A stretch of 57,182 nucleotides of DNA from Lachnospiraceae bacterium (GTDB lineage Bacteria > Bacillota > Clostridia > Lachnospirales > Lachnospiraceae): positions 1 through 57,182 of the forward strand of contig JAAWIS010000013.1 of the NCBI GenBank assembly GCA_022796475.1, written 5' to 3'. How positions within the stretch are numbered: position 1 is the first letter of the stretch; each line of letters starts with the position of its first letter. A model generated the notes under the pieces. That model made no database searches. It was not told the origin of the DNA and saw only the letters and a program-made list of their open reading frames with translations. Positions 40,758 through 45,711 of the stretch are shown here, one piece after another. Position numbers and translations under genes: made by a program.

Positions 40758-40872
40758 CTTTTATACCTGGGAATGATATAATTTGTTAAAAGACGTTTCG
40801 GCGTCCCTGTAAAACAGACAGAACAAAAAATTAACAGATTAATGTAAAAACATAAAAGTGAGGCAGAATAAC

Positions 40873-41646
40873 ATGAAAAAATTAATATCCTGGAATGTAA
40901 ATGGACTAAGGGCCTGTGTAGGGAAAGGATTTTTAGAGTATATGAAAGAGGCGGATGCAGATGTATTCTGCATCCAGGAAAGTAAGCTTCAGGAAGGTCA
41001 AATTCAGTTAGATCTGCCTGGCTATTACCAGTATTGGAATTATGCAGAGAAAAAAGGGTATTCAGGAACAGCGCTGTTTTCGAAAGAGAAGCCCATGACT
41101 GTTACCTACAAACTAGGAAAAAAAGAACATGATCAGGAAGGACGTATAATCTGTGCGGAATATCCGGAGTATTTCCTGGTAACCTGCTATACACCAAATT
41201 CCCAGGCAGAACTTGCCAGGCTGTCTTACCGGATGGAATGGGACAATGAATTCCGCAGCTATGTGGTGGAGTTAGATCGAAATAAACCAGTTATTATTTG
41301 CGGGGATTTTAATGTGGCCCACCAGGAAATCGACTTGAAGAATCCGAAAACAAACCATAAAAATGCCGGTTTTACAGACCAGGAAAGAGAAAAATTTACA
41401 CAGCTTCTGGATGCCGGTTTCCTGGATACCTTTCGCTATTTTTATCCGGATCGCAAAGACTGCTATTCCTGGTGGTCTTATCGGTTTTCAGCCCGGGCCA
41501 AGAATGCTGGCTGGCGGATTGACTATTTTTGCGCATCTAAGCGGCTGGAAAAACGGCTTGCCAGTGCGGCAATCCACACTGAGGTGATGGGATCGGATCA
41601 TTGCCCGGTGGAGCTTTGCCTATATGAGGAAGGGGAAACAAAATGA
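40873..41646 (+). CDS. Exodeoxyribonuclease III / AP endonuclease
   Basis: It cuts DNA at abasic sites and removes 3'-blocking groups in base excision repair. Seen: ISWNVNGLRA (4-13), QESKLQ with the metal Glu, YTPNSQ, GDFNVAH, WWSYR and GSDHCPVELCL with the terminal catalytic His. 257 aa fits the ExoA/Xth family. I start at ATG 40873; GTGAGG at 40858 lies 9 nt before it and serves as its ribosome site (a GTG start at 40858 is possible). It overlaps the ABC-F gene by 4 nt (ATGA). Confidence 0.94.
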   Translation: MKKLISWNVNGLRACVGKGFLEYMKEADADVFCIQESKLQEGQIQLDLPGYYQYWNYAEKKGYSGTALFSKEKPMTVTYKLGKKEHDQEGRIICAEYPEYFLVTCYTPNSQAELARLSYRMEWDNEFRSYVVELDRNKPVIICGDFNVAHQEIDLKNPKTNHKNAGFTDQEREKFTQLLDAGFLDTFRYFYPDRKDCYSWWSYRFSARAKNAGWRIDYFCASKRLEKRLASAAIHTEVMGSDHCPVELCLYEEGETK

Positions 41647-43469
41647 ATTTAATTACCATGGAGCATCTGACCAAATCCTATACTCAGCGGCTTCTGTTTC
41701 ATGACACGGATTTCTTTATCCATGAAGGGGAAAAAGTCGGGTTAATCGGCATAAACGGATCTGGCAAGTCTACGCTGCTAAAGATTGCAGCAGGATTAGA
41801 GGAGCCAGACAGTGGAAAAGTAACCAGGGTCGGAACTCCCCATATCCGGTTTCTGCAGCAGAATCCAGTTTTCCCGGAAGGGCTTACTGTTTTGGAGGGG
41901 GTTTTAAAACCTAACAGGGAAAGTATGCCGGAATGGGAGCTGGAAGCCATGGCCAAATCCATACTGAACCGGCTGGGAATTACAGACCACAGTGCAATGA
42001 TAAATTCACTGTCCGGCGGCCAGAAAAAACGGGTGGCATTGGCGGAGGTTCTGCTCTCAAAAGCAGAGCTTTTGATCCTGGACGAGCCTACCAACCATTT
42101 AGACAGTGAAATGGCAGACTGGCTGGAAGCGTATTTGAAAAAATTCAAAGGCGCCCTTTTGATGGTAACCCATGATCGGTATTTTTTAGACAGTGTTACA
42201 AACCGGATTGTAGAACTGGATAAGGGAAAGCTTTACAGCTATGAAACAAATTACGAAGGTTTTCTTATGCGGAAGGCAGAAAGAATGGATATGGCCATTG
42301 CATCTGAGAGGAAACGGCAGTCGATTCTGCGGGTTGAGTTAGAGTGGATGCAGCGGGGAGCAAGGGCCCGTTCCACGAAGCAGAAAGCGCATATCAAACG
42401 GTATGAAACTCTTCGGGATCAAAAGGGACTGGAGGAAGAAGCAGAACTTGAAATGGAATCCGTATCCAGCCGGCTGGGGCGGACTACAGTGGAAGTAACA
42501 GGACTTAGGAAGTCTTATGGAAGCAAGGAATTAGTGTCTGATTTTACGTATATCTTTTTGAGAAATGATCGAATTGGGATTATTGGCCCAAATGGGGCGG
42601 GAAAGTCTACTCTGCTAAAAATGATTGCCGGATGGGTAGAACCGGACGCAGGCCAGGTAACCATTGGCCAGACGGTAAAGCTGGGGTACTTTTCCCAGGA
42701 AAATGAGGAAATGGATGGCTCTCAGCGTGTGATTGATTATATTCGGGATGTGGCGGAATATGTGCAGACGAAAGACGGCAGCGTCAGTGCCAGTCAGATG
42801 CTGGAACGGTTTTTGTTTCCGTCCTCCATGCAGTATACTGCTATCAGTAAATTGTCAGGAGGAGAACGAAGAAGGCTGTATCTTTTGCGGATTTTGATGG
42901 ATGCCCCCAATGTGCTGATGCTGGATGAGCCTACTAATGATTTGGATATCCAAACCTTAACCATACTAGAAGACTATCTGGACAGTTTCCAGGGGATTGT
43001 GATTGCAGTATCCCATGATCGGTATTTCCTGGATCGGGTAGCAGGCAGGATTTTTGCGTTTGAAGGAAACGGGCGTATCGTTCCCTATGAAGGCGGCTTT
43101 ACCGATTATCAGGCTGCTGTGGAAGAAAAGTCTTGGAATGCAGAAGAAAAGGGCAGGCAGAAACGGGAAGGTGAAGGAAAAGAAAACCGCCGCGGTTCAT
43201 GGAAAGAAGATGCCCCCAAAAAGCTAAAGTTTACCTTTAAGGAGCAGAAAGAGTGGGAAGGGATTGAAGATGAGATTGGGGCTTTGGAAGAGGCTTTGGA
43301 AAGACTGGAAGAGGAAATATTGGCTGCATCCAGCAGCTATAGCCGGCTCCAGGAGCTGATGGCGGAGAAAGAGAGGCAGGAAGCCCTTTTAGAAGAAAAG
43401 ATGGAACGCTGGGTGTATTTAAATGATCTGGCAGAACAGATTGCAGCACAGAAAGGGATAACACCGTAA
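41643..43469 (+). CDS. ABC-F ATPase (Uup-like)
   Basis: A soluble protein with two ABC domains and no membrane segments, expected to act on the ribosome or on DNA intermediates. Each domain has Walker A (GINGSGKST, GPNGAGKST), signature (LSGGQKKR, LSGGERRR) and Walker B (LLILDEPTNHLD, VLMLDEPTNDLD). The linker with WMQRGARARSTKQKA and a C-terminal coiled coil after residue 530 are Uup features, favouring Uup over EttA or antibiotic-protection ABC-F. 608 aa. It is the middle gene of an operon with exonuclease III and the GH13-like gene. Confidence 0.9.
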   Translation: MNLITMEHLTKSYTQRLLFHDTDFFIHEGEKVGLIGINGSGKSTLLKIAAGLEEPDSGKVTRVGTPHIRFLQQNPVFPEGLTVLEGVLKPNRESMPEWELEAMAKSILNRLGITDHSAMINSLSGGQKKRVALAEVLLSKAELLILDEPTNHLDSEMADWLEAYLKKFKGALLMVTHDRYFLDSVTNRIVELDKGKLYSYETNYEGFLMRKAERMDMAIASERKRQSILRVELEWMQRGARARSTKQKAHIKRYETLRDQKGLEEEAELEMESVSSRLGRTTVEVTGLRKSYGSKELVSDFTYIFLRNDRIGIIGPNGAGKSTLLKMIAGWVEPDAGQVTIGQTVKLGYFSQENEEMDGSQRVIDYIRDVAEYVQTKDGSVSASQMLERFLFPSSMQYTAISKLSGGERRRLYLLRILMDAPNVLMLDEPTNDLDIQTLTILEDYLDSFQGIVIAVSHDRYFLDRVAGRIFAFEGNGRIVPYEGGFTDYQAAVEEKSWNAEEKGRQKREGEGKENRRGSWKEDAPKKLKFTFKEQKEWEGIEDEIGALEEALERLEEEILAASSSYSRLQELMAEKERQEALLEEKMERWVYLNDLAEQIAAQKGITP

Positions 43470-43553
43470 TTGTGAAATCCGGACAGAACCAGAAAGATGA
43501 AAGTAAAGACAGGACCAAAACAGAAGGACAGATGAAAAGGAGGCAGAAAAGGG

Positions 43554-45533
43554 ATGTTTCAACTTATAGAGGACAGCCGATATTATCCCATTGGTATTAC
43601 GTCAACAGGCGATGGTGTACATTTTTCAGTTGTGTCCGCGGGAGCAGAATGCAGCTTGGTGCTTTATCAGAAAGGGCAGAAAGATTCGATAGAAAAAATC
43701 CAATTTTCTCCCAATGCCAGGGTTGGCGATGTGTGGAATGCAACCATAGCCGGCAATTTCAGCAATGTAGAATACTGCTTTGAGATAGATGGCACATTGG
43801 TGGAGGATCCCTTTGGAATGAGTTTTTCCGGCCGCCAGGTGTGGGGGGAGGAAGCAAGTTTAAACCGAGTTCTCAGGGCATCGATTGTGAAAGAGGATTA
43901 CGACTGGGAGAAAGATAGGCTTCCCGAAATTCCCTTTGATGAGTGTATCCTTTACCGGATCCATCCAAGAGGTTTTACAAAACACCCTTCTTCAGGGGTG
44001 CCGGAAGAAGAAAGAGGAACATTTGCTGGAATCATAAGAAAGATTCCGTATCTGAAGGGGCTTGGCATCACTACGGTTGAACTGCTTCCGTCCACTGAGT
44101 TTCAGGAAGTGATGGAGCAGCAGATTCTGCCGGCAGCCGTATTAAAAGAAGGCCGGCCAGAGGATTTGAAGAAAGCCGGAAACGAAAAAGAAAAAAAGTC
44201 TTCCGGGCGGATTAATTATTGGGGATTTATTCCAGGTCTGTTCTGTGCTCCGAAAGCGTCCTATTGTTCCGGAAGGGAAAAGCACCCGGGAGAAGAATTT
44301 AAGAATCTGGTAAAAGCGCTGCATAAAGCGGGGATGGAACTGGTAATGGATTTCTTTTTTTCCGGGCAGGAAACAGAAGTATTTGTATTGGAAGTGCTGC
44401 GGTTCTGGGCCAGGGAATACCATGTAGACGGTTTTCATTTGATTGGTTTTCATCCAAGCGGCTTGATTAGCAGGGATCCTTACCTTAGCAGAAGAAAACT
44501 GTTTGCCCAGAACTGGGAGGGAGCCCCGGAAACGAACATTAAGCGCCTTGGAGAATATAATGACGGATTTGCTATTGATATGAAACGGGTTTTGAAAGGC
44601 GATGAGAGCCAGATGAGAAATCTGGCTTTCCGGACCAGATACAATCCAAAGAGTCACGGTGTGATAAACTATATGGCCAATATTAATGGATTTACACTGA
44701 TGGATCATGTATGTTATGACCGAAAGCATAATGAGGCAAATGGAGAAAATAACAGAGATGGATGCGACTATAATTTTTCCTGGAATTGCGGAGTAGAAGG
44801 GCCTACGAAGAAAAAAAAGGTGTTGGAAATGCGCCGCAAACTTTTGCGGAATGCGTATCTGCTGCTGTTTTTAAGCCAGGGAACACCGCTTATTATGGCA
44901 GGAGATGAATTTGGAAATTCTCAGGAAGGCAATAATAATGCCTACTGTCAGGATAATGAGATTTCCTGGTTAAATTGGAACCTGGCAGAGGAGAATTCAG
45001 ATTTGCTGGAGTTTGTAAAAGCAGTGATTGGGTTCCGAAAGACGCATCCCATGTTTCACATGCCGAAAGAGCCAAGGATTATGGACTATTTGTCCTGCGG
45101 TCAGCCAGACGTATCGTATCACGGAGAAAAGGCGTGGTGTCCAGAGTTTGAAAATTTCCGCAGGCAGTTAGGGATTCTTTACTGCGGAAAGTATGGGATC
45201 CTTCCGGATGGAAGCTGTGATGATACCTTTTTTGTAGCCTATAATATGCATTGGGAACCTCACGAGTTTTCACTTCCCAAACTGCCGAAGGGCCAATTTT
45301 GGCATGTGGCGGTAAATACAGATGCAAAAGAGAAGGGCGGATTTTATCCTAAGGGAAAGGAAATATTTTTAGAAAAGCAGAAGCTTTATATGGTGACGCC
45401 GCGGACGATTATGGTCTTTATCGGAAAAGCGGTAAGTGAGGAATGGCTGGAACGGCAAAAGCAGTCAAAAGCTGTAAAAGGCGGAAAAAAACCAACAAAA
45501 GGAAAGGGACGGAAAGCAGAAAAAGATAAGTAA
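43554..45533 (+). CDS. GH13 isoamylase/GlgX-like protein, probable pseudoenzyme
   Basis: 659 aa with the domain order of glycogen-debranching enzymes: an N-terminal CBM48-like sandwich (about 1-115), a GH13 barrel and a C-terminal sandwich ending in a Lys-rich tail. Retained GlgX signatures are GITTVELLPSTEF, HNEANGENNRDG, LSQGTPLIMAGDEFG and GNNNAYCQDN. The catalytic positions have changed: VDGFHLIG replaces VDGFRFD (nucleophile Asp to Ile297), LFAQNW replaces LIAEPW (acid Glu to Gln319), and NINGFTL replaces AHDGFTL (His-Asp to Ile377-Asn378). The DxxxNH motif is also altered (VMDFFFS). So it is unlikely to hydrolyse; a glycan-binding or regulatory role is possible. AAAAGGAGG precedes the ATG, 84 nt after the ABC-F stop. 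Confidence 0.85.
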   Translation: MFQLIEDSRYYPIGITSTGDGVHFSVVSAGAECSLVLYQKGQKDSIEKIQFSPNARVGDVWNATIAGNFSNVEYCFEIDGTLVEDPFGMSFSGRQVWGEEASLNRVLRASIVKEDYDWEKDRLPEIPFDECILYRIHPRGFTKHPSSGVPEEERGTFAGIIRKIPYLKGLGITTVELLPSTEFQEVMEQQILPAAVLKEGRPEDLKKAGNEKEKKSSGRINYWGFIPGLFCAPKASYCSGREKHPGEEFKNLVKALHKAGMELVMDFFFSGQETEVFVLEVLRFWAREYHVDGFHLIGFHPSGLISRDPYLSRRKLFAQNWEGAPETNIKRLGEYNDGFAIDMKRVLKGDESQMRNLAFRTRYNPKSHGVINYMANINGFTLMDHVCYDRKHNEANGENNRDGCDYNFSWNCGVEGPTKKKKVLEMRRKLLRNAYLLLFLSQGTPLIMAGDEFGNSQEGNNNAYCQDNEISWLNWNLAEENSDLLEFVKAVIGFRKTHPMFHMPKEPRIMDYLSCGQPDVSYHGEKAWCPEFENFRRQLGILYCGKYGILPDGSCDDTFFVAYNMHWEPHEFSLPKLPKGQFWHVAVNTDAKEKGGFYPKGKEIFLEKQKLYMVTPRTIMVFIGKAVSEEWLERQKQSKAVKGGKKPTKGKGRKAEKDK

Positions 45534-45560: not shown

Positions 45561-45711
45561 GGCCGCAGCGGATTGTGCTTCCATGGTCTGCACAATCCGC
45601 TGCAGTCAGAAGAGGTGTTATGAAATAGGGAAACTCCGTAATATATCGGGATGAATGGTTAGAAATCGATTCCTTGTATTGCAGGGGCTGCCTATTTTGT
45701 AGCGCCTTTTT
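45561..45711. repeat. Repeat family 2, copy 1, with convergent terminator
   Basis: GCAGCGGATTGTGC pairs with GCACAATCCGCTGC (about 45565-45603). A second part (about 45659-45715), with ATTCC, TGTATTGCAGGGGCT and ending in AGCGCC TTTTTTT, resembles 49130-49183. It lies between the convergent GH13-like and luxS genes and probably terminates one or both. Confidence 0.55.

Follow-up and report, generated by a model that had tools for sequence, protein, structure and literature searches.

In the glycogen pathway of Firmicutes, ADP-glucose pyrophosphorylase has a regulatory subunit, GlgD, which is a catalytically weakened paralog; it forms a heteromer with GlgC, and its fold is unrelated to that of GlgX. 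Among isoamylases, plant ISA2 is a GH13_11 paralog without catalytic residues that is kept by selection, and the available text of the maize study (PMC12510319) describes it as diverging faster than its active relatives and, according to its authors, as glucan-binding. ISA2 is there reported to lack the second surface site, SBS2, and to bind glucan solely at the first surface site, and its role is called presently unclear (PMC12510319). The GlgX of Streptomyces venezuelae is activated by c-di-GMP, and is thus allosteric, as given in the accessible part of PMC9530166, and glucan is contacted there by residues of loops that are retained in the protein described here. Our search of the literature, which covered titles and the beginnings of abstracts with subscription journals outside its scope, retrieved no description of a catalytically dead bacterial GlgX, a result that does not prove its absence in print.

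Here we analyse a gene that we designate pseudo-GlgX, contained in a window of 57,182 nt (the whole stretch of DNA analysed) from a Lachnospiraceae genome. The gene (43554..45533, + strand) is a single ATG-to-stop open frame of 659 aa, preceded by the ribosome-binding site AAAAGGAGG (43535..43543, +) 10 nt 5' of the ATG, so that the intact frame and good ribosome site described in an earlier, sequence-only reading of this DNA are both present. Pfam comparisons placed over cut-off an N-terminal CBM48-like domain (PF02922, 25.7 bits, cut-off 22.4; residues 13-81, 43590..43796, +) and a partial alpha-amylase barrel (PF00128, 37.8 bits). Both GlgX/isoamylase signatures pointed out by that reading are kept, HNEANGENNRDG at residues 392-403 (44727-44762, +) and GNNNAYCQDN at residues 459-468 (44928-44957, +), inside a retained beta7/beta8 loop block (residues 384-475; 44703..44978, +). 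The protein ends in a Lys-rich tail (residues 640-659; 45471..45530, +), and tails differ in length and charge across the family. The CBM48 domain, the barrel and the loops HNEANG..NRDG and GNNNAYCQDN indicate descent from GH13_11, and the closest solved structures are TreX 2vnc (2.9e-71) and Streptomyces GlgX 7u39 (1.1e-67), followed by ISA1 (1.8e-63), whereas ISA2 scored 6.9e-37. Active GlgX and TreX share with pseudo-GlgX the CBM48 domain, the barrel, the C-terminal domain and near-identical beta7/beta8 loops. Unlike them, pseudo-GlgX has no catalytic triad, its active-site loops are deleted, and it reaches only 337.8 bits against the GlgX model TIGR02100, below the curated cut-off of 640.9, which is weak as a sole test, since the intact GlgX proteins of the same genome score 632.1 and 627.6.

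The residues that define an active GH13_11 enzyme, the Asp nucleophile, the Glu acid/base and the His-Asp pair, are all absent from the window protein. Alignments with TreX 2vnc, with 7u39 and with the two GlgX of the same genome confirmed the substitutions read earlier from the sequence: Ile297 at the nucleophile position (44442..44444, +), Gln319 at the acid/base position (44508..44510, +) and Ile377-Asn378 at the His-Asp position (44682..44687, +). Alignment with the genome's own GlgX additionally revealed His295 in place of the beta4 Arg. The long loop that follows beta3 (approximately residues 287-330 of the GlgX on contig C124) is deleted, as is a 14-residue stretch following the nucleophile position. 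The region I Asp is present (D266), and across the family this position is mostly occupied by Glu. The two GlgX encoded in the same genome (contigs C5 and C124) have intact catalytic residues, and the genome also encodes a GlgA over cut-off, while two of its proteins exceed a cut-off for GlgB. The second of these, on contig C131 (L250:4575-6527, - strand), is a divergent GlgB in which AEDS and DFVPVHF take the place of the AEES and DWVPAHF of the other copy.

To place these losses in the family, we assembled 128 pseudo-type sequences, 78 from chosen genome loci among the matches listed and 50 from named loci, a set in which deletion-bearing members are under-represented. The named loci were the best 80 of 591; the 50 pseudo-type ones are attributed to Lachnospiraceae or its genera, Clostridium, Eubacterium, Clostridia, Bacillota or unnamed bacteria, and the other 30, with an intact FDLA motif, come from several phyla. 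None of the 128 keeps all three acids (Asp, Glu, Asp), and 88 keep none. The nucleophile Asp is missing in 127/128, indicating that the loss seen in the window is more than chance, and the homologs share the loss while the exact substitutes vary. Fifteen different residues occupy the nucleophile position, and therefore the old active site appears to be free to drift. Single survivors do occur, namely the acid/base Glu in 19 members, Asp378 in 24 and His377 in 30. By comparison, Asp and Glu are present in 32/32 active GlgX and His-Asp in 31/32, the remaining sequence being gapped. The sole member with a nucleophile Asp (L085:4938-6797, - strand) has no acid/base Glu.

Pseudo-GlgX occurs in around 236 of 299 sampled Lachnospiraceae genomes representing 298 genera (approximately 79%); carriers were called on an A1 E-value no worse than 1e-125 or on the position of the match, with G048 left out, and the sampled genomes are drafts, some of them less than 75% complete. 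In a sample of 196 genomes at the level of the order, all 20 matches above 600 bits fell in the family of the window, and the best match outside that family reached 385 bits (G478), with a split pattern like that of ordinary GlgX. In a tree of 40 of the 128 pseudo sequences, drawn at random, and 32 active ones (unrooted, from a quick search without bootstrap), all pseudo rows lay on one side of a single branch with an SH-aLRT of 100. Given this support and the long branch separating the groups, we reject recent duplication of a GlgX of this genome as the source of the gene. As judged from the alignments and this tree, pseudo-GlgX is one clade of non-catalytic GlgX/isoamylase (GH13_11) paralogs.

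Selection on this clade was examined by simple pairwise counts, from which many dS-saturated pairs were set aside; six pseudo pairs had at least 80% identity. In the genus of the window, pseudo-GlgX gave dN/dS values of 0.081, 0.072 and 0.119 (pairs of at least 80% identity), and in three other genera values of 0.058, 0.083 and 0.036, the last with a near-saturated dS of 3.5. Set against active GlgX in one genus (three pairs, 0.023-0.044), pseudo-GlgX gave 0.058-0.124; the GlgX pairs of the window's genus, which are diverged copies of around 60% identity (0.119 and 0.195), were not used as a yardstick. These low values indicate strong constraint on pseudo-GlgX, although looser than that on GlgX. 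Full-length frames of 648-692 aa were found in 11/11 genomes of the window's genus. The sequence-only reading had taken the gene for a maintained pseudoenzyme and had proposed a dN/dS comparison; the purifying selection found here (0.04-0.12), the intact frames and the family-wide conservation support this view.

Conservation is distributed unevenly along the protein. Counting as conserved the columns with the same residue in 90% of active GlgX, and as kept those with that residue in 80% of the 128 pseudo sequences, 38/41 columns are kept in the loop block (384-475) and 12/13 in the C-terminal part, and only 36/129 in the barrel (130-383) and 8/25 in the N-terminal part. The accessible text on Streptomyces GlgX (PMC9530166) lists contacts with the -1 sugar (Trp222, Tyr224, His271, Asp342, Glu378, Trp380 and His449) and with the remaining sugars of acarbose (Arg212, Glu470, Asn534 and Tyr536). 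We mapped these through the sequence alignment, without superposition, using a chain offset of 3 fixed on Asp342, Glu378, His449 and Asp450. As mapped in this way, Trp222 corresponds to W223 (127/128), Tyr224 to Y or F225 (128/128), Glu470 to E398 (128/128), Asn534 to N462 (128/128) and Tyr536 to Y464 (122/128, with Trp in the other six). Of the -1 contacts, His271, Asp342 and Glu378 have wholly or largely disappeared, while His449 remains in 30/128 and Trp380 in 51/128. Active GlgX do not all share the E398 contact: their residue at this position is Glu in 18/32 sequences and Trp in 14/32.

A second set of residues comes from the border lobe of maize ISA1, where variants of R504, N561, W578 and N628 showed no detectable activity and W578 touches glucan at SBS2 (PMC12510319, available text). 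By spacing, their equivalents in the pseudo family are position 344 (Arg in 125, Lys in 3), N393 (128/128), W410 (122/128) and N460 (128/128). The spacing N-16-W-49-N occurs once in each of the 32 active GlgX and in 122/128 pseudo sequences, where, judging by the commonest contexts, it corresponds mostly if not always to N393/W410/N460. The rice ISA1 alignment has the same spacing, with an Arg 57 residues earlier (counted by hand), and we infer the maize equivalents in this manner because they were reached by spacing through rice ISA1 and not by alignment with the maize sequence. The kept beta7/beta8 loops and C-terminal domain would thus hold a patch that contacts alpha-glucan in active relatives, although their strict conservation could instead reflect folding of the lobe and not binding.

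The retention of a patch that contacts alpha-glucan in active relatives argues that the protein most likely binds glucan without cutting it. We propose that, in an ancestor within the Lachnospiraceae lineage, a single GlgX copy was stripped of its catalytic acids and of the loops surrounding them, and that the dead copy was then retained through most of the family. The resulting protein would bind chains of glycogen or maltodextrin and leave them uncut, and once bound it would serve as a scaffold, a sensor or an access regulator for other glycogen enzymes. On balance, we favour a role for pseudo-GlgX in glycogen metabolism as a scaffold, sensor or regulator that binds alpha-glucan, a reading that is probable but held with some reserve. 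A glycogen sensor or scaffold had also been suggested from the sequence alone, and this remains plausible, with indirect support from the kept glucan-contact residues and from a single locus with the order pseudo-GlgX, glgB, malQ-like.

The alternative that survives best, although we regard it as unlikely, is that pseudo-GlgX is a bacterial counterpart of ISA2 in the strict sense, that is, a non-catalytic subunit that would form a heteromer with active GlgX and tune its activity or choice of substrate. Consistent with this, the genome of the window encodes two catalytically intact GlgX, and every ISA2 that the authors of the maize study looked at departs from the conserved catalytic set in at least four of five residues (PMC12510319, accessible text). 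GlgX was detected in 99/299 genomes, and 92 of the 98 that were resolved encode pseudo-GlgX as well (Fisher p = 3.8e-6, a value that overstates the link because the genomes share ancestry). GlgX presence was here taken as more than approximately 370 bits against TIGR02100, with 61/299 genomes over the curated cut-off and without checking catalytic residues individually; the best three candidates per genome were scored for GlgX, and the best four for carriers. However, 144 of the 236 carriers lack a detected GlgX, and scoring of all candidates in 12 GlgX-less genomes gave no GlgX-type match in any of them. An obligate GlgX partner is thus rejected on the presence table, and another partner must be possible. 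GlgX queries moreover matched none of the neighbouring ORFs at 97 pseudo loci, recovering only the window protein itself, and ISA2, as described in the available text, has an extra N-terminal domain and no SBS2, whereas pseudo-GlgX starts at its CBM48 domain and appears to keep border-lobe residues, the SBS2 Trp among them. The regulator of another debranching enzyme envisaged in the sequence-only reading is therefore weakened as an obligate role, although pseudo-GlgX accompanies GlgX in 92/98 resolved genomes. Co-occurrence with glycogen synthesis is uninformative: GlgA is over cut-off in 289/299 genomes, exceeding the 236 carriers, indicating that synthesis does not require pseudo-GlgX.

In the window, the gene follows an exonuclease III-type gene (40858..41646, +; PF03372, E = 1.5e-33), possibly the first of the transcription unit, and an ABC-F ATPase gene (41643..43469, +; PF00005 in two stretches, PF12848 and PF16326) that overlaps it by 4 bp. 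An 84-bp gap separates the ABC-F gene from the pseudo-GlgX ATG, and a weak consensus scan of its + strand yielded no promoter-like or terminator-like match, making co-transcription of the three genes plausible. Downstream, luxS is convergent and lies beyond a terminator-like hairpin (45687..45703, +; consensus match only). For comparison, we collected ORFs of at least 80 aa around 97 of 98 loci drawn from the 128 members, naming one member per cluster with Pfam. Upstream on the same strand, exonuclease III lies within three genes at 19 loci, ABC-F within two genes at 20, and both at 8, so that the coupling noted as odd from the sequence alone does recur, but in a minority of loci. Within five genes on either side, the neighbours include GltX (28/97), UvrD (28), exonuclease III (21), TrpS (21), TraX (17) and an ABC-F type (35 when ORFs are clustered, 29 under a stricter match). 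A DUF5662 gene lies one or two genes downstream at 41/97 loci and a DUF1292 gene nearby at 36/97. Glycogen genes were searched for with GlgA, GlgB and GlgX queries, without GlgC, GlgP or MalQ, and GlgB was found within five genes at 3/97 loci. The closest link to glycogen genes is in an Oribacterium assembly (L103:9051-17621), where exonuclease III-like, pseudo-GlgX, glgB and malQ-like genes follow on one strand, the first and last identified by eye.

This neighbourhood bears on a second alternative, slightly less likely in our estimation than a GlgX subunit, in which the scaffold would have left glycogen for a role in DNA repair or in the handling of nucleic acids, its former glucan surface being either vestigial or put to new use. 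Besides the position of the window gene after the exonuclease III and ABC-F genes, and the exonuclease III and UvrD helicase counts given above, an O6-methylguanine-DNA methyltransferase of around 160 aa with a PCHR motif is fused in frame to the C-terminal end of four of the 128 members, which belong to four genera (L034, L035, L040 and L097; PF01035 at 2.2e-34 or better, plus PF02870), and 27 of 51 tails of at least 15 aa have a net charge of at least +3. The other two long members that we scanned, L056 and L103, contain no methyltransferase fusion, and the two fused members included in the tree both fall within one small clade. Against a repair role, fusion is confined to these 4/128, and a search of all the pseudo loci collected found no other methyltransferase copy close by, nor one in the window. 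Much of the neighbourhood consists of general housekeeping genes (GltX, TrpS, HtpG, AroC and LuxS), and gene orders are inherited, so that raw neighbour counts are not independent. The tails are not conserved and 9/51 are acidic, and the near-invariant glucan-contact residues would be left unexplained. The fusions, with exonuclease III and UvrD close to other members, keep a repair role under consideration, although four members and an inherited gene order give it thin support. A bolder combination, which we rate as a long shot, would be that in 144/299 sampled genomes the sole GlgX-type protein detected is a dead glycogen-binding protein for signalling or scaffolding, in some lineages welded to a DNA-alkylation repair enzyme and so tying the state of the carbon store to genome maintenance.

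In part of the family a debranching activity appears to be unaccounted for, which raises the question of whether pseudo-GlgX could still be an enzyme, through other residues or other chemistry. In 108 carriers neither GlgX nor type I pullulanase was over threshold. The pullulanase set comprised 66 genomes, 65 of them over cut-off; the one below, G262, is outside the 108, and among the 108 at least G008 shows a partial, sub-threshold match to pullulanase (279 bits). A GH133-type debrancher was rejected as the missing enzyme, since GDE_C exceeded its cut-off in 5/80 genomes, always below 31 bits; the 80 comprised 60 of the 108 carriers, each at least 97% complete, 19 non-carriers and the window's own genome, and among the 60 there were just two hits, both below 26 bits. 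These gaps would suit an enzyme, but we consider one very improbable. Not only does the nucleophile position accept 15 residues, the acid/base and His-Asp positions also vary widely, and, of the three conserved acids specific to the pseudo clade, E398 belongs to the loop block and the other two, D511 and D519, to the C-terminal domain. Takeover of catalysis by other acids, which the sequence-only reading had named as evidence that would count against it, is rejected, because no conserved acid specific to the clade lies within residues 130-383. The missing activity may also have an ordinary source, such as other 1,6-glucosidases or pullulanase types outside our search. Pseudogene decay, or a mis-assembly, is barely credible as an explanation, despite the loss of catalytic residues and active-site loops and a selection somewhat looser than on GlgX, since full-length frames in all genomes of the genus, dN/dS of around 0.1 and family-wide conservation refute decay as far as sequence allows.

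Taking pseudo-GlgX as the glucan-binding, non-catalytic protein that we favour, its closest parallel is ISA2. Pseudo-GlgX is, from what its sequence tells us, a bacterial analogue of ISA2, forming a conserved non-catalytic branch of GH13_11. There are several differences: CBM48 similarity from residue 13 leaves no room for the extra N-terminal beta-sandwich domain of ISA2, pseudo-GlgX often occurs without an active GlgX, and it was found here in one bacterial family only. The SBS2-related residues N393, W410, N460 and R/K344 are kept in 122-128 of the 128 pseudo sequences, an assignment made by spacing that covers only part of SBS2 as it appears in the accessible maize text (PMC12510319). What the pseudo family keeps of the parent surface thus seems to differ from what ISA2 keeps, and the origin of the family is apparently separate, as judged by distribution and similarity, without a tree that includes ISA2. 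Unlike pseudo-GlgX, the S. venezuelae GlgX is catalytic, and the comparison with c-di-GMP control is drawn from the GlgX side only (PMC9530166, available part).

For the family, the analysis exposes a gap, in that branch removal in 108 carriers is explained neither by GlgX nor by type I pullulanase, yet GlgA is present in 289/299 genomes. Approximately 79% of the genomes sampled in this major gut-associated family encode a protein to which the name GlgX could easily be misgiven by similarity. Pseudo-GlgX would represent a second, apparently independent dead isoamylase with different retained residues, and may offer a simpler system in which to ask what such proteins do.
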